Shown here: one piece after another, positions 203 through 36,371 of the stretch
Layout of the letters: every line of letters begins with the position of its first letter
How positions within the stretch are numbered: the first letter of the stretch is position 1
Virus record (IMG/VR): IMGVR_UViG_3300035703_000213
Location: 1-37,773 of that record
DNA: 37,773 nt
From: a virus
Strand: one strand, 5' to 3'
Program-made: the position numbers and the translations under genes
The notes under the pieces: model-generated
What the model saw: the letters and a program-made list of their open reading frames with translations, nothing else
Databases searched by the model: none
Told to the model about the DNA's origin: nothing

Positions 203-1759
203 TCACCCTTCCACACCGTTGAACGCACCCGCCACAATCGCGGCCTCCACGACTTCGGCCGCCCGGGTGTCGGACCAGTCCACAAACGTCGCCAGCAGCC
301 GGTCGCGGCACTCATCAGGTGTGCGGCTGGTCAAAATGATCTCGCGGACAGGGGCGAGACTACCGCGGTAGGCCTGCGAGATCGCCGCGGCGGCCTCGCG
401 AGAGATGGAATCAGCGGCCAGAGCGGCCTCTGCGGCGGTCGGGATGGCTGTGGCGGACAGTTTTCGGGTGGTCAAGGGTGCCGCGCCTGGATGAGCCGGC
501 TCAGGATCTCGCTCTATTTCCAGCCCCAGGCGCTTGCTGAGCACATTGAGGCTCTTGTCCGAGAGTCGGAGGCCGGCAGTCTTCAGCTTGCTGAGCACAT
601 CAGCCGTGGTCGAGTTCTCTTCAGGCTCTTCACCGCCAAACGTAATGTTGGGCGGATTGCCTGGGATCTGGTTGATGCGCAGGAAAGGGCGGAAGAGCTG
701 CTCGCGGAGCGTCTTGGCCAAGAACTTCTTGTCATGCTGGGCAAAATCCGCACGCACCTGGCTTTGCAGGTCGCTGGTGCCGCTGCCCAGGCCCGTGGGT
801 TTGGCGGTCGAGCTGAGAGTTTGCCCGAGGACGCGCTTGCTCTGCTCGTCACAGCAGAGGTCAAAGAATTTGCCGTGGGCATCTGCCGCGCCAGGCGCTG
901 CCTGGACAAGCTCCACCTGCGTGGCCGTCGTCACCACCAGGCCGCCGATGCGTGAGCTGAGGCGGAGAGCCTGCTGGAGGATCTGCCGGCTGCGTTCATC
1001 TTCCTTCTGAAATTTGGCGACAGGAAACGGCGTGCCGAAACGGTCGAGGAACCTCACCCACCACTCGCGGTCCTGGAGCTTCAAGAAACTCCACCAGACC
1101 AGGGCACGCATCGGGCCGCCCCAGTTGTCCGGGTGCTTCCGCATCAAATGGCCGCGGTGAATGATGTAGCGGCGTGGATCTGGGCGCTGCCAGCGGCCGG
1201 TTTTGTAACCCGTCACAGGATCGCAGAATTCGACCTCCAGCTTGCCCGTCGTCCAGCGGAGGAGGTGGTCAGGAACAGCAACCATGTCCGCCCAGTCGAG
1301 CAAGAGACCAGGCTCGCTGGTCTCCTTGTAAGTGCGCTCCACGATGGCCAGCGGCCAGATGTTGCCCCAGAGCAGATCCGCACACAGACCGGGAAAATCG
1401 GGCGCACGCTCGATGGCGGCGCGGATGGCCTCAGCGGCCACTTCGTCCCGGGCATCGTCCTGGCGATAGGGGGAGATCACCGGATCGTCTCCGAGCACGG
1501 CCAGGTGGCGCGTCTCGATCACGCCTTGAAGGTGCGTGTCCGCAATGAGCACGTCCCGGTAGATAGCAAAGAGATCACGCGTGTCACCCTGCTCAGCCTG
1601 CATGATGGCGGCATGAACCCGGTCCGCACTGATCGTGGCCAGCGTCGAGGTCGGCTCATTCCGCATGTCGAGCACGGTCTCAAGGGGGCGGGAAAGCTGC
1701 TGCCGTTCGAGTTCGGCAAGACGGGCGGCGAGTTCGGCTTTGGTGGGTGCTTTAGGCAT
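203..1759 (-). CDS. Portal protein, DUF935 / Mu gp29-like
   Basis: The product (518 aa) matches the DUF935 family, the portal ring of Mu-like phages that sits at one head vertex and conducts DNA. Supporting sequence includes the long middle segment with NWGGPMRALVWW, FLKLQDREWWVRFLDRFG and TPFPVAKF, and the later SSTAKPTGLGSG and VRADFAQHDKKFL motifs typical of gp29 proteins. An ATG at 1780 is possible, but the ATG at 1759 has AAGGA seven bases upstream, one of the few clear ribosome sites here, so I prefer it. It overlaps the terminase end by 8 bp. It is the last gene of the left arm. In Mu its neighbour would be MuF (gp30), which here lies about 25 kb away on the opposite strand. Confidence 0.9.
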   Translation of the reverse strand: MPKAPTKAELAARLAELERQQLSRPLETVLDMRNEPTSTLATISADRVHAAIMQAEQGDTRDLFAIYRDVLIADTHLQGVIETRHLAVLGDDPVISPYRQDDARDEVAAEAIRAAIERAPDFPGLCADLLWGNIWPLAIVERTYKETSEPGLLLDWADMVAVPDHLLRWTTGKLEVEFCDPVTGYKTGRWQRPDPRRYIIHRGHLMRKHPDNWGGPMRALVWWSFLKLQDREWWVRFLDRFGTPFPVAKFQKEDERSRQILQQALRLSSRIGGLVVTTATQVELVQAAPGAADAHGKFFDLCCDEQSKRVLGQTLSSTAKPTGLGSGTSDLQSQVRADFAQHDKKFLAKTLREQLFRPFLRINQIPGNPPNITFGGEEPEENSTTADVLSKLKTAGLRLSDKSLNVLSKRLGLEIERDPEPAHPGAAPLTTRKLSATAIPTAAEAALAADSISREAAAAISQAYRGSLAPVREIILTSRTPDECRDRLLATFVDWSDTRAAEVVEAAIVAGAFNGVEG

Positions 1760-3398
1760 GGAGGAATCCTTCCAGGGCATTTAGACCGCGCCTGAGCCAT
1801 GAGGGGTTGGGATCGCGCCCGTTGCTGCCACCCACATCACCGAGCTGCATGCCATCGGTGAAGGCATCCACCCCTCCCTCCGCAGCGAGGGCGAAGACGC
1901 TCAGCTTGGTGCTGTCGAAGGTGTCACCGTGATTCCCGGCGGCATCCAGCTCGCACACAAAGAGCCCCTTTTCCTTCTTCTGGAGAAGAAAATCGTCCTT
2001 CACCCATTTATCAGGCGGGAGGGCCAGCAGGCGGTCCGTCGCGGTGTTCACCAGCAGGCCGCCCGTCTTCTCCTTCATGCGCATCCTGGCCTTCGGGTTG
2101 TCGGGATCTTCCACCGTCTCCCCGCTCACTACGATGATCACGGTGAAGCCGGCCGCTTCCAGCGCGGTTTTCATCTGCGTAGCGAAATAACGCTCATTGG
2201 AGCCGTCTAGTGCCACGGCCTGAATGCGTGCCCCGGTGTGCTTCAGAGCCTCACAGGAGCGCAGCACGAGGCCTTTGGAGAATTCCGGGTTGGCGCTCTT
2301 CCAGCGCACGATCAGCCGAGCCCGGCGCTCCGCGCCCTTGCCCTGTGTAAGAGTGATCGAGCTGGGGTTGCTCTTGGCATTCGTGGTCGTGGCGATGTCG
2401 TAGCCCACGCCCCAGGTGCCTTGTGCGCCGATGTTTTGCACCGCGCCAACGACACGCGCCAGCGTGGCCTCTTCCTGCCCGGATTCGATGGTGCCGAGAT
2501 CATAGGCGAGACAATCCTCCGCGCCCTTGGCCTGGGCGGCTTCGATGGCCGTGCTCGGCATGGCCACCAGGCCGCCAGGGATGCGTTTCAGCGCGTAGTT
2601 GCGGTCCCACGCGTCTTTATCCAGCGCTCGGCTGCGATGCACCAAGGCGGGCACAGGCTCGCGCGTTTTGAGATCGTAGAGCTTTACCCCGGCCGCTTCG
2701 GCGTCGAAGACATCCACACGCAGGCAAAGCACGCCAGCGGCGGATTCATACCAGTGACCATCGGCACAGGGTTCAAAGGTCTGCCCCGGAATGGGCGGCA
2801 TGCCGATCTTGTAGCACAGATGGCTTTCGTCCGGCGGCGGAGTCGAGGCCATCAACACGCGGAAAGTCGGATCTCGGCTGGCGATGGGCTCCATGGCCTC
2901 AAACACCTCCGCGAAGTCGGGAATGAAGCCGATCTCGTCAATGAGCACATCCCCGGAGAAGCCGCGCGCCGTGGCAGGATTCGGCGCGATGATCTGCGTG
3001 CGGCTCACGACGGTGCGCGAGTGATGAAGGCGCATCTCCAGGCGGCTGCGCTCAAAGAGATCGGCGATGCCATCGAGGTCAATATCCTTGTATTCCTTGC
3101 CACCGCTGTCCGCCAGGCCGAGCTGCATCTTCGCGGCGGCGGCCTCTTCTTTCATGGCACTGAGGGCATCGGAAAGCACGGCGGCCTCTTTGTAGATCAG
3201 CTCCTTGCCCACGTTAATGGATGCGCTCGCGAAGGTCACGAGGCGGCCCGGATGCTTCATCATCTGCCGGAGAGAGATGCCCGCGAAAGTCGTGGTCTTG
3301 CCGAATTGGCGGCGGGCCTCAAAGTAGATCATGCCCACCTCACCAAAGCGCTTCATCAGCGCCCGCTGAGGCGGAAGCCAGACCAGGCGCTTACTCAC
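1752..3398 (-). CDS. Terminase large subunit, Mu gp28-like
   Basis: ATPase-nuclease motor that packages DNA into the head (548 aa). A Walker-A-like EARRQFGKT lies near residues 27-35 and a Walker B GDVLIDEIGF near 149-158. The C-terminal RNase-H-like nuclease shows the expected acidic positions: GVGYD near 334, ALDG near 398 and HGDTFD near 490-495. The start is taken as GTG at 3398, because GTGA then overlaps the TGA of the small terminase gene. A second GTG one codon upstream (3401) is equally open. It is translationally coupled to gp27-like upstream and overlaps the portal downstream, the Mu order 27-28-29 but on the minus strand. Confidence 0.92.
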   Translation of the reverse strand: MSKRLVWLPPQRALMKRFGEVGMIYFEARRQFGKTTTFAGISLRQMMKHPGRLVTFASASINVGKELIYKEAAVLSDALSAMKEEAAAAKMQLGLADSGGKEYKDIDLDGIADLFERSRLEMRLHHSRTVVSRTQIIAPNPATARGFSGDVLIDEIGFIPDFAEVFEAMEPIASRDPTFRVLMASTPPPDESHLCYKIGMPPIPGQTFEPCADGHWYESAAGVLCLRVDVFDAEAAGVKLYDLKTREPVPALVHRSRALDKDAWDRNYALKRIPGGLVAMPSTAIEAAQAKGAEDCLAYDLGTIESGQEEATLARVVGAVQNIGAQGTWGVGYDIATTTNAKSNPSSITLTQGKGAERRARLIVRWKSANPEFSKGLVLRSCEALKHTGARIQAVALDGSNERYFATQMKTALEAAGFTVIIVVSGETVEDPDNPKARMRMKEKTGGLLVNTATDRLLALPPDKWVKDDFLLQKKEKGLFVCELDAAGNHGDTFDSTKLSVFALAAEGGVDAFTDGMQLGDVGGSNGRDPNPSWLRRGLNALEGFLHA

Positions 3399-4054
3399 CA
3401 CGCATCGCCGAACAGATGCTTGCCCAGCGCCTCCAGTTTGGTGTCTGCGGCCATGTCACTCGTGGCGATGCGTTTGGCCTCTTCGTCCTTGGCAAATTCG
3501 ATGAACAGCTCTGCCGTCTCACGCTGGAAGCGTTTTTTATCGAGCGTGAGCTTTTCCTGATCGAGACCATGCTTCGACTTGTCCAGCTCCAGCCGCTCAT
3601 CGTCTTGCTCGATCTTGGCGATGGAGGCCAGCGCCTTCGCCAGTTTGTCCACGCCCACGCCGGTGATGGTGGGCTTGCCTTTCTCGTCGAATTCGACGCT
3701 TTGACCTTCTTCCAGCGCCTCGTGGATCTTGCCCACGGCGAGGGCGAGAAAGCCCTTCGACATCCGCCCGCCGGCTGCCTGGGCCAGACGCAAGCTCAAC
3801 TCTCCGAGTTTCTCCACGCGGCGCACGTCTTCTTGGTCCTTCATCCAGTCGTCAAACCCGCCCTGCCGCCACAGCGAGAGATTCGCATCACTGATGGGCT
3901 CTCCGTGAAAGCTCTTGGCGAGCACGGCTTTGACCTCCTCTTTCGCGTTAAGCCACTCCAGCAAGGTCTGCCCGTTCTCGTTGTCCCGCAGGCGCTGATT
4001 CAGCTCCTCACGGATGGCGAGGGGCAGACGAGCGATCTTTCCAATGCGGGCCAT
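3395..4054 (-). CDS. Terminase small subunit, DUF3486 / Mu gp27-like
   Basis: The protein has 219 aa. The opening MARIGKIARLPLAIREELNQ, followed by RLRDNENGQTLLEWLN, is characteristic of the DUF3486 family (Mu gp27), which recognises phage DNA and works with the gp28 motor. The N-terminal part has a helix-turn-helix-like composition. The middle and C-terminal parts are helical and charged (LDKSKHGLDQEKLTLDKKRF), consistent with oligomerisation. It ends in a 4-bp GTGA overlap with the large subunit. The start at 4054 is the only sensible ATG. Confidence 0.9.
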   Translation of the reverse strand: MARIGKIARLPLAIREELNQRLRDNENGQTLLEWLNAKEEVKAVLAKSFHGEPISDANLSLWRQGGFDDWMKDQEDVRRVEKLGELSLRLAQAAGGRMSKGFLALAVGKIHEALEEGQSVEFDEKGKPTITGVGVDKLAKALASIAKIEQDDERLELDKSKHGLDQEKLTLDKKRFQRETAELFIEFAKDEEAKRIATSDMAADTKLEALGKHLFGDAW

Positions 4055-4060
4055 GGTGGA

Positions 4061-4366
4061 TTAGGAGCGAGCGGGCCAGTGCCAGGTGTGGGGAGTCTTG
4101 CTGTCATCGCGATGACGGCTCATCAGCCAGAGTGAATCCGGCCCGTCGAGAATGGCCTGTCCGTTCATGAGGCCGTTTTCCTCATTCCAGACTCGCACGA
4201 TGATGGCGGGGACGATGTCGCCAGGCTGCACGGGGTTGCCGGGGCTTTCGTGTTCACCGATCAGGCCAGCGGCTTTGTGGCGCTCGCGTTGTTGGCGAAT
4301 CGCGGCGCAATCTGATTCAGAGAGGACATAGAGGACAGTGCGTCCGGTGGTGGGTGTCGTGTTCAT
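4061..4366 (-). CDS. Hypothetical protein in terminase/lysis cluster
   Basis: The product is a 101-aa protein that I do not recognise. A central stretch GDIVPAIIVRVWNEENGLMN, followed by GQAILDGPDSLWL, looks like a small beta-rich domain rich in Trp and Gly. The gene lies 7 bp downstream of the M15 peptidase gene and 6 bp upstream of the small terminase gene, in the same orientation, so it is almost certainly co-transcribed. It has neither a signal peptide nor a membrane segment. A small DNA-modulating or structural role is possible but unsupported. Confidence 0.7.
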   Translation of the reverse strand: MNTTPTTGRTVLYVLSESDCAAIRQQRERHKAAGLIGEHESPGNPVQPGDIVPAIIVRVWNEENGLMNGQAILDGPDSLWLMSRHRDDSKTPHTWHWPARS

Positions 4367-4373
4367 CGTGGAT

Positions 4374-4820
4374 TTACTTTTTGCCGAAGACTTGCTGCGC
4401 GTGCTTCCAGTCGCGGAAGTCGGCGTCTTCGAGGTGCGGGGTTTCCCAGCTCAGGTGGCGGAGACCGTGTTTTTCGGCGATGGCTTGAGCGCGGGAGTAA
4501 GCCTTCTCGTCGTCCCAGTCTGCCTCATACATGCCAGCGGCTTTCGGGTGCGCCTTGAGCGGCACAAAGTCGATGGCGAGGCCGTATTGGTGCATGCTTT
4601 GCCAAGGCCCGGCGTTGGTCACTTTGCGGCCCTTTTTGGTGCGGCCGATGGCATAAAGCTCCGCTTGGCGCTCAGGGCTACGATGGCCTTCGTAAATGTA
4701 GAGATTGAGCCCGGCGGCCTCACACTCCCGCGACCAGGCGATGACTTTTTTTCGAAAAGCAGGCTTTAAAGAAGCCAGCTTTTCTTCCTCGATCTTCATG
4801 ACGGCAGCGATGGAGATCAT
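4374..4820 (-). CDS. Phage endolysin, M15-type zinc peptidase
   Basis: Predicted peptidoglycan endopeptidase (148 aa) for host lysis. The family signature is clear: EGHRSPERQAELYAIGR near residues 44-60, SMHQYGLAIDF with zinc ligands H77 and D84, and SWETPHLE with H129. This is the D-Ala-D-Ala carboxypeptidase / L-alanyl-D-glutamate peptidase fold. It has no signal sequence, so it needs a holin; several small membrane proteins in this arm could serve. The ATG at 4820 overlaps the preceding TGA (ATGA). An internal ATG at residue 8 is an alternative start. Confidence 0.9.
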   Translation of the reverse strand: MISIAAVMKIEEEKLASLKPAFRKKVIAWSRECEAAGLNLYIYEGHRSPERQAELYAIGRTKKGRKVTNAGPWQSMHQYGLAIDFVPLKAHPKAAGMYEADWDDEKAYSRAQAIAEKHGLRHLSWETPHLEDADFRDWKHAQQVFGKK

Positions 4821-5122: not shown

Positions 5123-5458
5123 TCATGTCGTGCCCCGTGCGTTGCGCTGGCCGCGCATCGCCGCGAGGCGGTCTTTGACGGGCGTCTTCACGACCTCGTA
5201 ATGCTCCGCGATCTCCCGCCGCTTGCGTTCCTTGGCCTCCTGGCGGGCCTTGTCGATGCTGGTCCCATGCACCTCCACACCGTGGCGCGTGAGCAGTGCC
5301 GGCCAGAGCGTGACGGCCGCCGTGAGGCTCTCCTTAAAAACCGCCTGGTGGAGTGTGCAGCCCCATTCGGCGCGGAAGGTCTCGATCAGGATAAGCAGCC
5401 AGCCGGGGCCGTTCTGGCGGTCGAGATCCAGCGCCAGTGTCTGAAGCTGTTCGGCCAT
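5123..5458 (-). CDS. Tail assembly chaperone, T-type extension (frameshift partner)
   Basis: The 111-aa frame lies just downstream of the G-like gene. The segment FRAEWGCTLHQAVFKESLTA, followed by AVTLWPALLTRHG, resembles the short Trp-containing helical motif of second tail-chaperone frames. A -1 shift at GGGAAAC (5497..5503) in the upstream gene enters exactly this frame and stays open, adding RAQRLKKAQSQDQ before M1. It is therefore probably made mostly as the C-terminal part of a G-T fusion, although it also has its own ATG. In siphophages such fusions bind tail tube and tape measure proteins during tail assembly. Confidence 0.75.
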   Translation of the reverse strand: MAEQLQTLALDLDRQNGPGWLLILIETFRAEWGCTLHQAVFKESLTAAVTLWPALLTRHGVEVHGTSIDKARQEAKERKRREIAEHYEVVKTPVKDRLAAMRGQRNARGTT

Positions 5459-5472
5459 CTGGTCTTGCGACT

Positions 5473-5503
5473 GCGCCTTCTTCAGGCGCTGGGCGCGTTT
5501 CCC
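5473..5503 (-). promoter_or_regulatory. Programmed -1 ribosomal frameshift signal
   Basis: On the minus strand the slippery heptamer G-GGA-AAC (5503..5497) lies in the zero frame of the G-like gene in the required X-XXY-YYZ phase. Seven bases further downstream is a perfect 6-bp GC-rich stem, GCGCCT/AGGCGC with loop GAAGA (5489..5473). The stem begins just before the zero-frame TGA and extends past it. Shifting -1 joins the two open frames without a stop. Lambda G/GT uses GGGAAAG in the same role. Confidence 0.85.
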
Positions 5504-5937
5504 GCGTCATCGGGGCTGAGCTTGTCACTCTCCTCCTTGATCCACGCGGCCACTTTGGCGAGATCCGCCATCGTGAGGTGCATGGCGAACTCGATCACCG
5601 TCTTTTCAAACAAGGCCCCTTCGTCATCCGCCTGGATGATCTGCCAGGCCAGTTCGGGATTCTTCAAGAGGAAGGCCAGCGCCCCCATGCTGCCCATCGG
5701 GCTGCCGAGAGACTGCCGCTTCTCCGCCAGCTCGCTCACGCGATGCAGCATGAGCTGATAGGCCGCATGAATGGGCGGAAACACGATGCCAGCGATGACA
5801 CGGCCGCCGCTGGCGGCATCCAGCAGGCTGGCGGATTCTTCAGCAGAGAGGCCTTTGGCAGCGGCCTCCTTTTCGGCCTTCACGCCCGCGAGAAAGACGA
5901 GCTGATTGGCCTGGAGTTCGGTGAGGGTGGGTTTCAT
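5482..5937 (-). CDS. Tail assembly chaperone, G-like
   Basis: The protein has 151 aa and is mainly helical. The C-terminal part (NPELAWQIIQADDEGALFEK, then FAMHLTMADLAKVAAWIKEE) is acidic, followed by a short Asp/Pro tail. Near its end it carries the frameshift signal described at 5473..5503. A frameshifting gene pair downstream of a tail-tube-like gene is the classical signature of G/GT chaperones. Here the tape measure gene is not next door but in the right arm, on the other strand. The start is ATG 5937 (MKPTLTEL). The longer frame to 5973 only translates the heptad-repeat leader. Confidence 0.75.
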   Translation of the reverse strand: MKPTLTELQANQLVFLAGVKAEKEAAAKGLSAEESASLLDAASGGRVIAGIVFPPIHAAYQLMLHRVSELAEKRQSLGSPMGSMGALAFLLKNPELAWQIIQADDEGALFEKTVIEFAMHLTMADLAKVAAWIKEESDKLSPDDAGNAPSA

Positions 5938-5972
5938 GGAATGACGAATGATGAATGACGAGTGATGAATCA
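5938..5972 (-). repeat. Heptad-repeat leader before G-like gene
   Basis: In sense orientation this reads as degenerate repeats of CATTCGT/CATTCAT ending directly at the ATG. A 19-base core, TCATTCATCATTCGTCATT, also occurs in the leader of the plus-strand gene at 23531, more than 17 kb away. A sibling leader fills 6210..6243. Confidence 0.75.
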
Positions 5973-6209
5973 TTGAGGCTTATCTTGCTCGCGGCGATGC
6001 AGCTCCATGGCTTTGATGCTCTCCTGGCTCTTGAGCCGCCCGCGCTGATGGACGTAGAGCAGGCCTAGCAGCGTCACGCCGCCAGCGGCCCACGTCACAC
6101 TGGTGAGCGAAAGAGCTGCCTGAGCGGTGAGTAAAAGACCACCGATGATGACCACCCAAAATTCAGTGGTGGAAACGCCGGGCTTGAGGGGAGGGGTGGG
6201 GAGGTTCAT
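5970..6209 (-). CDS. Small membrane protein, holin candidate
   Basis: The product has 79 aa. There are two closely spaced hydrophobic stretches: FWVVIIGGLLLTAQAALSL near residues 17-35, then VTWAAGGVTLLGLLYV. A charged C-terminal tail follows (HQRGRLKSQESIKAMELHRR). Size, two transmembrane segments and a basic cytoplasmic tail fit small phage holins, but no family motif proves it. The start is taken at ATG 6209 (MNLPTP), because the longer open frame only reads the repeat leader and the previous gene. It lies between a 97-aa gene and the chaperone genes. Confidence 0.7.
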   Translation of the reverse strand: MNLPTPPLKPGVSTTEFWVVIIGGLLLTAQAALSLTSVTWAAGGVTLLGLLYVHQRGRLKSQESIKAMELHRREQDKPQ

Positions 6210-6243
6210 CGCAATGACGAATGAGGAATGGTGAATGATGAAA

Positions 6244-6624: not shown

Positions 6625-7050
6625 CTACTTGCCGGAAGGGACCGCCAGAGGGCCGTTGAAGTGCTCCACGGCGGCATTCACAGCCTCGCTGGCAACTCGC
6701 AGGGCGGTGGCCTGCGCCTCGGGAGAATCAAACGGCGTCTCGGTGATCAGCATCTTGGCGGCGTCTCCCGCGGCCAGGACGGTGAGCGCTGCCAGCGGCT
6801 TGTTCTGCTCGCCCAGATTGGTGGCGATGGTGTCAGAGACCGTGCTCACGACTTGAAAGCCGAGCTGCTTGCCCGCGCTCTTCACATCCACCTTTTGACC
6901 ACTGGCCTTTTGCAGCGCCAGATCAATGCTGGCACGGGCGATCATCGCGCCGGTGTCGATGGCGTTCTGTTTGGTGAAGGCTCCACAGGCCGCCAGCATG
7001 AGGCAGCAGAGTGCGGAGAAGAGAGAACGGAGAGTGAAGGGTGTTTTCAT
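6625..7050 (-). CDS. Phage-encoded lipoprotein
   Basis: The protein has 141 aa. The N terminus MKTPFTLRSLFSALCCLMLA runs into AC-GAF, a type II signal peptide with lipobox LAAC near residues 18-21, so the mature protein is probably lipid-anchored at Cys21. The mature part is Ala-rich and helical, with no recognised domain. In this position it could be an outer spanin-like lipoprotein or a superinfection-exclusion protein. The first fits its neighbourhood of small membrane genes, but the length is unusual. The start is ATG 7050; the longer frame only translates the AT-rich repeat leader at 7051..7091. Confidence 0.75.
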   Translation of the reverse strand: MKTPFTLRSLFSALCCLMLAACGAFTKQNAIDTGAMIARASIDLALQKASGQKVDVKSAGKQLGFQVVSTVSDTIATNLGEQNKPLAALTVLAAGDAAKMLITETPFDSPEAQATALRVASEAVNAAVEHFNGPLAVPSGK

Positions 7051-7091
7051 GATGCTTTGATTTTTCATCTTTAATCTTTGATCTTTGGGCT
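7051..7091 (-). repeat. AT-rich heptad leader before lipoprotein gene
   Basis: Sense strand: degenerate AAAGATC/AAAGATT/AAAGATG units directly before the ATG. It belongs to the same class of pre-start tandem repeats as the CATTCGT and TCTCCGC leaders, with a different unit. Confidence 0.6.
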
Positions 7092-7778
7092 TTAAGCCGC
7101 CGTGGCGTTCACGGTGCTGCTCCATTCACCGGAGCCGTCCGCGTTCACGGCACGCACGCGGTAGTGGCGTGTCTGCCCGGTGGTCACGGTGTGCGTGTAG
7201 GTGCTGCTGGATGGCGTGGCCACCTGCGTCCACGTCACGCCGGCATCGCTGCTGGCCTGGACGATGTAGCTGGTGGCATCGGTGACATCCGGCCAGTCGA
7301 TCACGATCTGGCCGCTGCCCGCCGTGGCGGTCGCGACGGGAATGCCGATGTCCAGCAGGTAGCGCAGGCCCGTGGCGGTATCGAGCCGGAAAGCCGGTGC
7401 GTTGAGCAGCGCGTCCCACATCTTCACCGGGATGCTCATCGTGCGCTCTTTGCCGTCGTCATACTTGATGTCGATGCCAGGCATCACGCGGGCCGTGACG
7501 TTCACCACGGGGAGAGCGATGAGCGTGTACAGCCGCGGCGGGGTCACCGTGGCGTCAAACATCACTTCCAGCGTGGCCTCGAAGCCGGGCTTCTTGATGA
7601 TGTGAGCGCGGAGACTGCCTGCGCCGTTGCTCAGTTCCTCTTCGTCGCCATTGCGCTTCACGCTCATGGATTTCACCTTGCCGAAATCATCGCCCAGAAT
7701 GGCGGTGCCAATCACAGCTTCGGCATCGCCAAGCAAAAGAACGTCATCGGGGCGGTAGGTGGCGGAGATGTCAGACAT
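7092..7778 (-). CDS. Tail-tube-like protein with C-terminal fibronectin III domain
   Basis: The product has 228 aa. The N-terminal 140 residues are paralogous to the protein at 10350..10841: VLLLGDAEAVIGTAILGDDFG here against MLLLGEAQPVLGTAMLGNAFG there, then similar MFDA and SIPVKMWDALLNA blocks. The C-terminal 85 residues form a fibronectin type III domain (IVIDWPDVTDATSYIVQASS, YRVRAVNADGSGEWSS). Siphophage tail-tube subunits often carry such Ig/FN3 decorations at the C terminus. The chaperone pair with its frameshift lies downstream. I infer a major tail-tube role, not confirmed by family match. Confidence 0.65.
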   Translation of the reverse strand: MSDISATYRPDDVLLLGDAEAVIGTAILGDDFGKVKSMSVKRNGDEEELSNGAGSLRAHIIKKPGFEATLEVMFDATVTPPRLYTLIALPVVNVTARVMPGIDIKYDDGKERTMSIPVKMWDALLNAPAFRLDTATGLRYLLDIGIPVATATAGSGQIVIDWPDVTDATSYIVQASSDAGVTWTQVATPSSSTYTHTVTTGQTRHYRVRAVNADGSGEWSSTVNATAA

Positions 7779-23492: not shown

Positions 23493-23530
23493 TCACCTTC
23501 ATCATTCGTCATTCATCATTCGTCATTGCC
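23493..23530 (+). repeat. Heptad-repeat leader (CATTCGT/CATTCAT)
   Basis: TCATTCATCATTCGTCATT and further degenerate units lie directly before ATG 23531. The core is identical to the sense-strand leader of the G-like gene at 5937 in the opposite arm. Confidence 0.75.
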
Positions 23531-24313
23531 ATGCCCTCTCCCACTGAAGACACCTTCCCGCGCCCCGTGTGGCAGCTCACCGTGCATCCGAAGATGATCG
23601 GCCTGCGCCGGCCGGTGCCGATGGAGAAGATCCCCGGCCTGGGGCTTTTCCGCTGGCACGATCGGGAGGATGGCACCTTCGAGCCGCGCGTGGAGCTGCA
23701 TGATGCCTGGCTGCGCATTGGCGATGTCGAGAACCTGCCCCTGGGCGGTCTCACCACCGAAGTCACCCGCAAGCTCATCCATGGCGGCTTCATCTACGCA
23801 TGCAGCCCCGCGCCTTCTTTGACGCTCGTCAACATCAGCGATCTGCTGCGCCATCGTGAGGAGGCCAGCGAAGATCCACACTGGTGGACGGCGGAGCGCC
23901 TGCGCCGCTACAAAGAGGGCGATGAACCGCGCGAGTGGCCCATGGAGCGCCGCGCCACGCTGCCGGCAGACAAGGGCAAGGTCCGCGCCATCGGCATCTT
24001 CGAGATCACCGCCACACGCCGCGGGGAAGTGGTGGATCTGAGCGCGGAGTATCGCATCCGGGAAAGCTGGATGCGCATCTCCGAAGTCGAGCGCCTGCCC
24101 CTGGGCATCAGCGCGGAGGTGATGTTCCGCCTCATTCGTTCCAGCTTCGTGCTCGGCACCGTGGCCGCGCCCGCCTCCACGTTCATCGACGTGTGGGATC
24201 TCCTCCGCCACTACGAAGCCACCAGCGGCGCAAACGCCGCCGAATTCTGGACCAGCGAACGCCGCCAGCGCTACGCCGAGGCCGGCAGCATGCGCAGCGC
24301 GGAGGAGTTCTGA
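23531..24313 (+). CDS. Tandem winged-helix (excisionase-like) protein
   Basis: The product has 260 aa and contains an internal duplication of about 75 residues. Copy one has AWLRIGDVENLPLGGLTTEV, then KLIHGGFIYACSPAPSLTLV and SDLLRHREEA. Copy two has SWMRISEVERLPLGISAEVM, then RLIRSSFVLGTVAAPASTFI and WDLLRHYEAT. Both end with a tryptophan and an ER-x(3)-RY-x-E motif. The pattern (helix, turn, helix, wing) resembles excisionase or MerR-type DNA-binding domains. A sequence-specific DNA-binding or recombination-directing role is inferred; the target is unknown. Confidence 0.7.
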   Translation: MPSPTEDTFPRPVWQLTVHPKMIGLRRPVPMEKIPGLGLFRWHDREDGTFEPRVELHDAWLRIGDVENLPLGGLTTEVTRKLIHGGFIYACSPAPSLTLVNISDLLRHREEASEDPHWWTAERLRRYKEGDEPREWPMERRATLPADKGKVRAIGIFEITATRRGEVVDLSAEYRIRESWMRISEVERLPLGISAEVMFRLIRSSFVLGTVAAPASTFIDVWDLLRHYEATSGANAAEFWTSERRQRYAEAGSMRSAEEF

Positions 24314-33331: not shown

Positions 33332-33793
33332 ATGGGCAAAAAAGCGAAACCAACAGCGGCAGCAAAACCGGAGGCCCCAAGTCTCCCGGTCTCTGAGTCT
33401 CCCCGTCTGGATTCGCTGCCCGTCGAAACACCTTCAGTGCCAGCGCCTGGCGCGGCTACTGCGGAGGAAAAGCCTGCGGAGGTTTTGGGGGTTTTACCCT
33501 CCGCTGGCACCTCCACTGAAACGATCAACCAACCCGAGAACACGACCGGGTTGATTGATCCGGCTGCGGAGTCCGCTCCGCAGCCGGACACCAATCAGCC
33601 CACTGAACCGACACCGCCCGATGACCCTGCCCATGCAGGTGAGGGCGCTGCCGCGCCGCCCGCCTTGGATCTGAGCAGCCATCCCGCCATCGAGCTGGCC
33701 AAGCGCCACAAGACCGGTGCTGGCAAGCCACAAGACGGTGCGCCGCGCTACTACACGCCGCCGCCCTTTGATGTGTTCGCCAAAAAGAAGTGA
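33332..33793 (+). CDS. Pro/Ala-rich head-operon protein (gp35 position)
   Basis: The product is 153 aa, low-complexity and acidic, rich in Pro, Ala, Glu and Thr over residues 10-115. The only folded-looking part is the C-terminal 40 residues (DLSSHPAIELAKRHKTGAGK, then RYYTPPPFDVFAKKK). Translated leader-type repeats appear near its N terminus (SLPVSESPRLDSLPVE). It occupies the position of Mu gp35 between T and gp36; homology is not demonstrated. Confidence 0.6.
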   Translation: MGKKAKPTAAAKPEAPSLPVSESPRLDSLPVETPSVPAPGAATAEEKPAEVLGVLPSAGTSTETINQPENTTGLIDPAAESAPQPDTNQPTEPTPPDDPAHAGEGAAAPPALDLSSHPAIELAKRHKTGAGKPQDGAPRYYTPPPFDVFAKKK

Positions 33794-33917
33794 CCTTCAC
33801 CGCGCATGAGACCGCACCCGTCGTGAGCCCTGCTCCGGCGGGTGCGCTGCGTTTGGGGGATGAGCAAGAGACGCTCTCCAGCTCTCGGCTCTCTGCGCTG
33901 TGCGCCATGCTCACGGC

Positions 33918-34352
33918 ATGCCTGATTACCTCACCCTCACGGATCTGCATGGCCAGATCCCGCCGCAGTTCCTCATTCAAGCGCTGGATGATGACAATGA
34001 TGGCGTGGTGGATGCCTGGGACGGCGTGAAGCAGGCCGTGCAGGATGATGTGGATGCGCTGCTGGAGGGCCGCTTTGCGGTGCCGCTGACGTTTTCACCC
34101 ATGCCTCTGGTGATCAAGCGGGCCTGCGTGGCCTTTGCCTGTGAGCTGTGCTATCGCCGCCGGGGCACCGCTGATGCGGACAACCCGTGGAAGGGCCGCG
34201 CGGACAGCTTCCGCAAGATCCTGGCCGGCATCACGGCAGGAGAGCTGAAGCTGAGCGTGAACCCGCCCGCGGAGGCGGCCGCCGTCGATCCACCCGGGGC
34301 CATCATCATTCTCGACAGCGCCCTGGGCGCTCCCGGCCGCATGTTGGGCTGA
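33918..34352 (+). CDS. Head-tail connector-like protein, DUF1320 / Mu gp36-like
   Basis: The product has 144 aa from ATG 33918. The opening MPDYLTLTDLHGQIPPQFLI, VDAWDGVKQAVQDDVDALLE and GRFAVPLTFSPMPLVIKRAC, with ACELCYRRRG, are the signature of DUF1320 (Mu gp36), a head-tail joining protein. It lies directly before the tape measure gene; the usual tail terminator, tube and chaperone genes expected between them are in the left arm. The upstream stretch 33794..33917 holds only a degenerate repeat leader. Confidence 0.88.
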   Translation: MPDYLTLTDLHGQIPPQFLIQALDDDNDGVVDAWDGVKQAVQDDVDALLEGRFAVPLTFSPMPLVIKRACVAFACELCYRRRGTADADNPWKGRADSFRKILAGITAGELKLSVNPPAEAAAVDPPGAIIILDSALGAPGRMLG

Positions 34353-34373: not shown

Positions 34374-36371
34374 ATGACGCTCGATTACCTCCTTCGACTT
34401 TCGGACAGTGCCTTCACCGGGCCGGCGAATCGCGCTCGTGGAACTGTGGACAAGCTCAATGCGGGCGTGGCCAATGTGGGCAAAGGCGCGGCTGGCGTGA
34501 ACAGCCTGGCTTCGTCGTTCACTGGGCTGGCGGCAAAGATCGGCGCTGCATTCACTGCCTACAAAGCTTTCGAGGTAGGCTTTGCTGGAGTATGGAAGAG
34601 CATCCGTGCAGCGGCGGACATGGAGACGACATCGACCGCGATGACCGTGCTGATCGGCGATGCGCAAAAAGCGGCGGATCTGATTGGCAGGATTAAAAAG
34701 CTCGGAGCCGAAACGCCTTTTGAGTTTCCTGAGCTCGCGACGGCGGGGAAGACGCTCTTAGCTCTTGGTGAACGTGCGGCCGATGTGCCTGATACGCTGC
34801 GCCGCATCGGCGATGTGGCCAGCGGAGTGGCGGCCCCAATCGGTGAAATTGCCGAGCTTTACGGCAAAGCTCGCACGGACGGCACTTTGTTTGCTGAAAC
34901 CATTAACCAACTCACTGGGCGCGGCATCCCCATCATTCGGGAGTTTGCCAATATTCTGGGCAAGCCGGAATCCGAAATCAAAAAGCTCGCCGAAGCGGGC
35001 AAGATCACCTTTCCCCTGCTAGACCAAGCCTTCCGCAACATGACGGCTTCAGGCGGTCAGTTTTACAGAATGACAGCCGAGCAAGCTGGCACGGTAAACG
35101 GCCTGCTGAGCACCTTGGGTGACAGCGTGGGGGAATTGTTCCTAGCGTTTGGCCAGCCCTTCAATGATGCGTTCAGGCCGCTGCTCCAAGATGCGATCGG
35201 CCTGGCGGGGCAGCTCAAACCGATGGTGGATCGCATGGGGGTGGCCGCTGGATCGGTGATGGCTACGATGCGCAATTTCGTCATGGAGGCCGAAAAAGGC
35301 AGCGGGCTCGCCGCTGTGCTGGGCGAGAAGCTCAAAGAGGCGTTCGCGCTCGCGGGCGAGGCCCTCATGATTCCCATCGGGGCCATCGGCGCGGCCATGC
35401 CGGCCATTGGCGATGCTTTTTTGGCGGCGCTGACCCCCGGCGTCATGTGGCTGAGTAAAAGCATGGAGGCGGCAGCGCTTCGCATGGGGAGCGTGCTTTC
35501 TGAGGTGCTGGCTGATGCCGTGGCAAGCGTCCCAGGCATGGGTGGCGCGAGCGTCTCCCTGAAAGGCACAGCTTTTTCAGCCGACGTTCGCTCTCGGATC
35601 GCGGCGGCAGATGCGGAAGATGCGCTGGGTGGCGCTGATCAAATGTTTGCACTGGCCGGGTCCAAGCTGGGCGAGGCAATGGCCACATTTCGCGACGAGC
35701 TGAAAGCGCGAGTGGATCGCTTCAGTTTCGATCTGGGATCGGGTGAGGTGATGGGCCAAATGCCTGAAGACTTCCTGGGCTCAACGGGCATGGCTGGCGG
35801 TGGCTCTTCGCAAGCGCCCGGCTTGGCTGGTGCATTGGAAGCCAGCACTAAAGACAACACAAAGGCGGTGAAGGACGGCGCGGCGGCAACCAAAGAGCTG
35901 AGCCGCGCACTCACCGGCAAAACGACGAGTGCCAGCACCGAAACCGGGCGCACGCGCATTGTAAGTGCTCGCGACGGAAGCACCGTAGCGAGGGGCAGTG
36001 ACCAGAATACGGACTACTCAGGCGCTTCCCAATTCGACTTGTTGCAGCAGAAGAAACGACTTGGAATCAGCGCCTTCAGCGGTCGCGGATGGGGGCCTCA
36101 GGGCAGAGTCCGTGGAAGCATGGGGGGCGGCTTGGATTGGCTGCACGCCATGAATCCCGAGCTGGCTCGACCCGCTGCGGGCATGGACATGACAAAACGT
36201 TTTTCCAGACCAAATATCCAAAGCCCTGGCACCGCCCAGGTGAACGAAAAGAAAGCCGCGGCAGCCGCCCAAACAGCCGAGAAGATCCAAGGAGGCGGTG
36301 GTGACAAACCCCGCTGGGATCTCGTCGCTCAAATCGCCGCCAACACGGCCAACCTCAAAGTCATCCGCTAA
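34374..36371 (+). CDS. Tape measure protein
   Basis: The product has 665 aa. Residues about 85-240 match the tape-measure domain: TAMTVLIGDAQKAADLIGRI, KKLGAETPFEFPELATAGKT, LLALGERAADVPDTLRRIGD and GRGIPIIREFANILG. Hydrophobic segments near 330-370 (ALMIPIGAIGAAMPAIGDAF) are the usual membrane-active part. The C-terminal third is Ser/Gly-rich and low in structure. At about 1.5 angstrom per residue it predicts a tail near 100 nm. Its tube and chaperone partners are encoded in the opposite arm. Confidence 0.88.
   Translation: MTLDYLLRLSDSAFTGPANRARGTVDKLNAGVANVGKGAAGVNSLASSFTGLAAKIGAAFTAYKAFEVGFAGVWKSIRAAADMETTSTAMTVLIGDAQKAADLIGRIKKLGAETPFEFPELATAGKTLLALGERAADVPDTLRRIGDVASGVAAPIGEIAELYGKARTDGTLFAETINQLTGRGIPIIREFANILGKPESEIKKLAEAGKITFPLLDQAFRNMTASGGQFYRMTAEQAGTVNGLLSTLGDSVGELFLAFGQPFNDAFRPLLQDAIGLAGQLKPMVDRMGVAAGSVMATMRNFVMEAEKGSGLAAVLGEKLKEAFALAGEALMIPIGAIGAAMPAIGDAFLAALTPGVMWLSKSMEAAALRMGSVLSEVLADAVASVPGMGGASVSLKGTAFSADVRSRIAAADAEDALGGADQMFALAGSKLGEAMATFRDELKARVDRFSFDLGSGEVMGQMPEDFLGSTGMAGGGSSQAPGLAGALEASTKDNTKAVKDGAAATKELSRALTGKTTSASTETGRTRIVSARDGSTVARGSDQNTDYSGASQFDLLQQKKRLGISAFSGRGWGPQGRVRGSMGGGLDWLHAMNPELARPAAGMDMTKRFSRPNIQSPGTAQVNEKKAAAAAQTAEKIQGGGGDKPRWDLVAQIAANTANLKVIR

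Follow-up and report, generated by a model that had tools for sequence, protein, structure and literature searches.

The virus record analysed here (IMGVR_UViG_3300035703_000213), a stretch of 37,773 bases that we call the window in its full length, carries on the minus strand of its left arm two overlapping frames, G and T. They are joined by a short signal of the kind that directs a programmed -1 ribosomal frameshift:

5482..5937, minus strand: G, putative tail assembly chaperone, zero-frame product of 151 amino acids; homologues 27-57% identical in the relatives L152, L162 and L088 described below, distant ones by profile
5497..5503, minus strand: slippery heptamer G GGA AAC; GGGAAAG or AAAAAAG/A at the same place in homologues
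5473..5489, minus strand: hairpin GCGCCT-GAAGA-AGGCGC, enclosing the zero-frame stop; z = -3.0
5123..5503, minus strand: T, the -1 extension, 126 codons from the heptamer, with a predicted fusion gpGT of about 271 amino acids; conserved domain

The heptamer GGGAAAC (5503-5497) lies in the zero-frame phase G GGA AAC, i.e. X XXY YYZ, and the zero-frame codons through the slip site read GCG GGA AAC GCG CCC AGC GCC TGA. A spacer of 7 nucleotides (GCGCCCA, 5496-5490) leads to a stem of 6 bp (GCGCCT, 5489-5484, paired with AGGCGC, 5478-5473, around the loop GAAGA), within which lies the stop TGA (5484-5482). From 5503, and already slightly upstream of it, the -1 frame stays free of stops until 5125-5123, and it runs into an open reading frame (ORF) of 111 amino acids, which is shorter than the T made by frameshifting. 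The heptamer and its phase, the 7-base spacer, the 6-bp stem and the open -1 frame had been named in the original prediction, made on this DNA without database searches, and each was confirmed on the minus strand. Among the 29 other genes of the window, in-phase heptamers with AAA or TTT as YYY occupy 4 of 8,356 codon positions, and the chance of finding one inside the 8-codon G/T overlap is about 0.4% (1% for any X XXY YYZ). The z score of the hairpin is relative to dinucleotide shuffles, of which 1 in 200 was equally good.

The zero frame belongs to an ORF of 163 amino acids starting at 5973, and its second ATG, at 5937, gives 151 amino acids. G probably starts at 5937 rather than at 5973, because the first 12 residues of the longer form (MIHHSSFIIRHS) derive from an intergenic repeat and the homologues align from MKPTL. 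The repeat giving MIHHSSFIIRHS recurs at 6205-6242 and 23498-23533. It is a dispersed intergenic repeat of the type ATTCATCATTCGTCATTC, whose copy at 5940-5975 adds N-terminal codons to the 163-residue ORF.

Searches of viral contigs with G alone or with the portal alone gave no match, and no relatives of G were found among annotated phages. Only three routes led to relatives: a mixed portal alignment, the tape measure and the tail-tube protein. A portal alignment yielded 17 loci from bacterial genomes along with 24 viral contigs, including L162, in a metagenome-assembled genome (MAG) of Verrucomicrobiaceae, and the Geminisphaera colitermitum TAV2 prophage L175. A profile of T matched the T domain in 7 of the 12 viral contigs and 6 of the 7 genomes searched. 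The tail-tube alignment led to L152 (3300035670_000610), on a contig that is nearly collinear with the window from end to end; its G and T are 38% and 46% identical to those of the window. The tape measure led to L088, where a single strand carries in succession head genes, a tail-tube-like gene, G, T and the tape measure gene, identity to the window being 28% for G, 37% for T and 49% for the tape measure.

The slip signal is conserved across these diverged sequences. L152 has GGGAAAG, the lambda heptamer, an immediate TAG, T in -1 and an 8-bp hairpin of different sequence; L162 has GGGAAAG followed by TAG; L088 holds A AAA AAG inside G in the same phase, with T in -1; and L175 has an A9G slip run. 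Overall, T lies in -1 with an in-phase heptamer of the GGGAAA or homopolymer type in 12 of the 14 loci examined, the other two having CCCTTTG in one case and a +1/-2 arrangement at A8 in the other (L221). Among 14 further hits from 388 genomes of the phylum, 11 combine a -1 position of T with an in-phase heptamer close to the T domain. The recurrence of the heptamer and of coding in -1 among aligned homologues, which had been proposed as a check, was therefore borne out. The T domain follows the consensus NGLGWxLTLIDxLxxEYGW...PLxQAFAL..AI..RYG....GPxY over 13 aligned loci. Between the heptamer and this domain, 11 of the first 14 loci have no ATG, GTG or TTG, and independent translation of T is therefore excluded there; translation of the second frame alone, which would have spoken against the prediction, is not what most loci allow. 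With its -1 overlap, its in-phase heptamer, the conservation of both and a T that in most loci cannot be self-started, the window pair is of the G/GT mechanism. Two relatives stand apart. In L221 (genome G015, 3705-4079) the T homologue is +1/-2 relative to G at an A8C run, which could reflect a Mu-like -2 shift, slippage or a sequencing error, and in L238 the G-like and T-like parts seem to form one reading frame, apparently free of any frameshift.

We conclude, with a probability of roughly 93%, that 5937-5123 (minus strand) encodes tail assembly chaperones of the G/GT type, made through a programmed -1 ribosomal frameshift, and that the pair is displaced to the left arm. The chaperone function is assigned because homologous pairs sit directly upstream of tape measure genes in eight phages: in all 8 right-arm phages tested, T is immediately followed by a tape measure gene, identified in seven by PHROGs and in L088 by homology to the tape measure of the window. 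Together with the conserved heptamer and the T frames without a start of their own, this supports the chaperone identity first proposed from the DNA alone. The lambda counterparts, at about 30:1, bind different partners: G the tape measure protein, and T the tail tube protein (PMC5009743). For frameshift efficiency, the role of the hairpin and protein contacts in the window, we infer the following. Most ribosomes would end at TGA 5484-5482 and produce G, while a minority would slip back one base on G GGA AAC and produce the fusion GT of about 271 amino acids, aided by the hairpin just 3' of the heptamer. By analogy with lambda, G would bind the tape measure protein and the T part would recruit the tail-tube subunit.

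A number of observations weigh against this assignment. First, the pair is not next to the tape measure gene in the window. Second, neither G nor T has a sequence match to named chaperone families (Pfam, including its TAC models, and PHROGs), an absence that is not exclusionary. Third, an AlphaFold model of G, mostly helical with a mean confidence score (pLDDT) of 84, has no significant fold match in PDB or BFVD. Fourth, next to distant tape measure genes G is matched by profile only weakly (E 6e-5 to 7e-3). Fifth, the hairpin is not significant by the shuffle test in L162, L088 and L175; downstream RNA structure is an accessory trait not expected in every member, and is present in the window and, at the same place, in L152 (z = -3.5). 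Sixth, the fusion protein GT is a prediction from sequence. The ORF 6625-7125 (lipoprotein-like) was considered as a member of Pfam TAC_9 and rejected, its match being weak (E = 0.012) and judged due to chance. G, T and tape measure have diverged in parallel between the window and its collinear relative G008, but this was not used as evidence, the large terminase subunit being equally diverged (36%).

The position of the pair has to be read against the rest of the genome. The relatives of the window were found in Verrucomicrobiota genomes, and the window is a Mu-like transposable phage of this phylum, with the following genes:

203..4054, minus strand: terminase small and large subunits and Mu-type portal (Pfam and PHROG matches), downstream of G/GT
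4374-4820, minus strand, left arm: M15 peptidase
5970-6209: membrane protein, among lysis-type genes
7092..7778, minus strand: tail-tube-like (major tail) protein with a C-terminal fn3 domain, 37% identical to the product of the gene directly upstream of G in L088
10350..10892, minus strand: second tail-tube-like protein, a paralogue without fn3, 42% identical to 7092-7778
16464, plus strand: transposase-like gene
21111, plus strand: MuB-like gene
26546, plus strand: MuF gene
30369, plus strand: protease gene
32325, plus strand: major capsid gene
33900..34352, plus strand: gp36-like head-tail connector (PHROG connector, E = 2.4e-10), directly upstream of the tape measure gene
34374..36371, plus strand: tape measure (PHROG tape measure, E = 6.5e-53), presumed client of G/GT, its N-terminal half 49% identical to the L088 tape measure

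The pair is thus grouped with tail-tube-like and terminase genes on the minus strand of the left arm. About 28 kb separate it from the plus-strand tape measure gene, and it lies upstream of the M15 peptidase and terminase genes instead of in the usual position before the tape measure gene. The tail-tube-like gene precedes G on the same strand, with other genes intervening, and the lambda-type order, in which the pair stands between the major tail and tape measure genes, does not occur in the window. In L088 the tail-tube-like gene, G and T separate the gp36-like gene from the tape measure gene; in the window these last two are direct neighbours. By profile, the window has one G and one T only, and none beside its own tape measure gene; a second G/GT there (ORFs 33332-34352) was considered and rejected for want of a profile match. 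The original prediction had correctly assigned the pair to the left arm and the tape measure to the right one, and the second, almost collinear contig shares this arrangement. The left-arm pair is found in the window, the L152 contig, L162 and TAV2 prophage 1, where G and T are directly upstream of the gene for the terminase small subunit. The right arm is present in the window, the L152 contig and TAV2, with the tape measure gene after the gp36-like gene on the other strand; the L162 contig ends sooner. As a separate observation, L090, L092, L098, L134 and L138 have G-like genes 2-3 kb upstream of the tape measure gene (weak matches), and inserts at this place may be common. In the prophage L159 (CANIBP010000023.1), the right-arm genes from tape measure to MuF stand immediately next to the large terminase gene, which is on the opposite strand; the early region and the G/GT-bearing left arm seem to be missing.

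Such a distance from the client invites the idea that the frameshift pair is real and was recruited to another role, e.g. the timing of lysis, after leaving the tape measure operon. Its neighbours are lysis-type genes (the membrane protein and the M15 peptidase) and the tape measure is far away. We regard this as improbable: the window has no other G or T to serve its tape measure, and three left-arm relatives have retained the two frames together with the slip signal. Less probable still is that G and T are two separate overlapping genes, the 111-residue ORF being self-started at ATG 5458 and the heptamer present by chance. That ATG is in frame, and L152 and L218 each have one ATG before the T domain as well, but the ATG at 5458 is preceded by no Shine-Dalgarno-like sequence, most homologues have no start codon at all in this interval, and the -1 phase and slippery heptamer recur across diverged sequences, when the chance of the heptamer in the window alone is already as low as given above. 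A frameshift by transcriptional rather than ribosomal slippage is very unlikely: many homologues have runs of A8-A9, on which RNA polymerase is slip-prone, and L221 is +1/-2 at such a run, but GGGAAAC in the window and GGGAAAG in L152 and L162 are not homopolymer runs, and the phase in these three and the hairpins in the window and L152 fit a ribosomal mechanism. That the left-arm position is an artefact of assembly or inversion, in a single metagenomic contig with its tail genes divided between arms, is hardly credible, because the displacement is common to an independent and almost collinear contig with the same order and, apparently independently, to the prophage of a cultured strain (TAV2, with G/T beside terS and the tape measure gene in the other arm), and a MAG prophage (L162) shares this left arm.

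How often did the displaced chaperone pair leave its client? On the portal tree, the left-arm state requires two changes, forced by well-supported branches, and the T tree, which is short and poorly resolved, likewise requires two. We lean towards the view that the pair was separated from the tape measure gene on two or more occasions in Mu-like phages of Verrucomicrobiota, moving to the oppositely transcribed arm with its frameshift kept. If so, the frameshift sets the ratio of G to GT without co-transcription of the client, and tape measures could be exchanged without their chaperone. The tape measure of the window is 41% identical to that of a distant phage (G002) versus 28% to that of the collinear relative G008, and G and T of the window are closer to the collinear relative than to G002. 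Sequence comparison thus suggests that in the lineage of the window a tape measure was exchanged without its chaperone.

The mechanism itself is known, the sequence family is unnamed, and the gene order is unusual and recurrent; we found no earlier report of a G/GT pair on the opposite arm in the library of open-licence papers searched. Phage lambda G/GT has, like the window, a two-product -1 shift at G GGA AAN near the end of G, with T in -1, and a pair tied to tape measure and tail tube function (PMC5009743); its heptamer, GGGAAAG, is highly shift-prone in E. coli (PMC5009743). Unlike in lambda, the slip site of the window ends in C and the pair is on the arm and strand opposite to the tape measure gene, and the searches made revealed no sequence or fold similarity between the two pairs. 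The likeness to lambda and other siphophages drawn in the original prediction holds for the frameshift design; the phage itself is Mu-like and transposable, not lambda-like. The reported slip site of g-t in the haloarchaeal virus HCTV-1, G_GGA_AAC (PMC5009743), is identical to that of the window; host and phage are unrelated, and the likeness drawn here is one of the heptamer. Closer in type, Stenotrophomonas phage Suso (QZI85830, QZI85831) combines a Mu-type portal with an annotated chaperone frameshift pair, likened here by annotation and not by homology, and differs in having the pair directly upstream of the tape measure gene. Phage Mu shares Mu-like head genes and a two-product chaperone with the window, and uses a -2 shift (PMC5009743) where the window has -1 and L221 looks -2/+1. 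Finally, in mycobacteriophage Corndog the chaperone gene is, as in the window, no longer directly beside the tape measure gene (PMC4351075); in Corndog-type phages this is due to an insertion between the two genes (PMC4351075), unlike in the window, with its pair on the opposite arm and strand.

These results assign a function to a protein family without a name, from a little-studied group of phages, and provide natural cases in which a chaperone pair and its tape measure client are outside one operon. Comparison of relatives with and without the displacement, including one in a cultured strain, allows testing of the need for co-transcription and of the matching between chaperone and tape measure.

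The partner expected for T deserves a qualification. The fn3 domain of the 7092-7778 product was seen by fold search, the tube fold itself being unconfirmed, and the PHROG and tblastn matches of the protein stem from this fn3 domain. For this reason we call it tail-tube-like, an identity that would follow from its position and its homology in L088. Both paralogues are kept in L152 and L162. At the other end of the left arm, many viral contigs of the relatives stop soon after the portal gene (203-1780, minus strand, in the window), which suggests that the portal is the left-terminal gene in this phage group.
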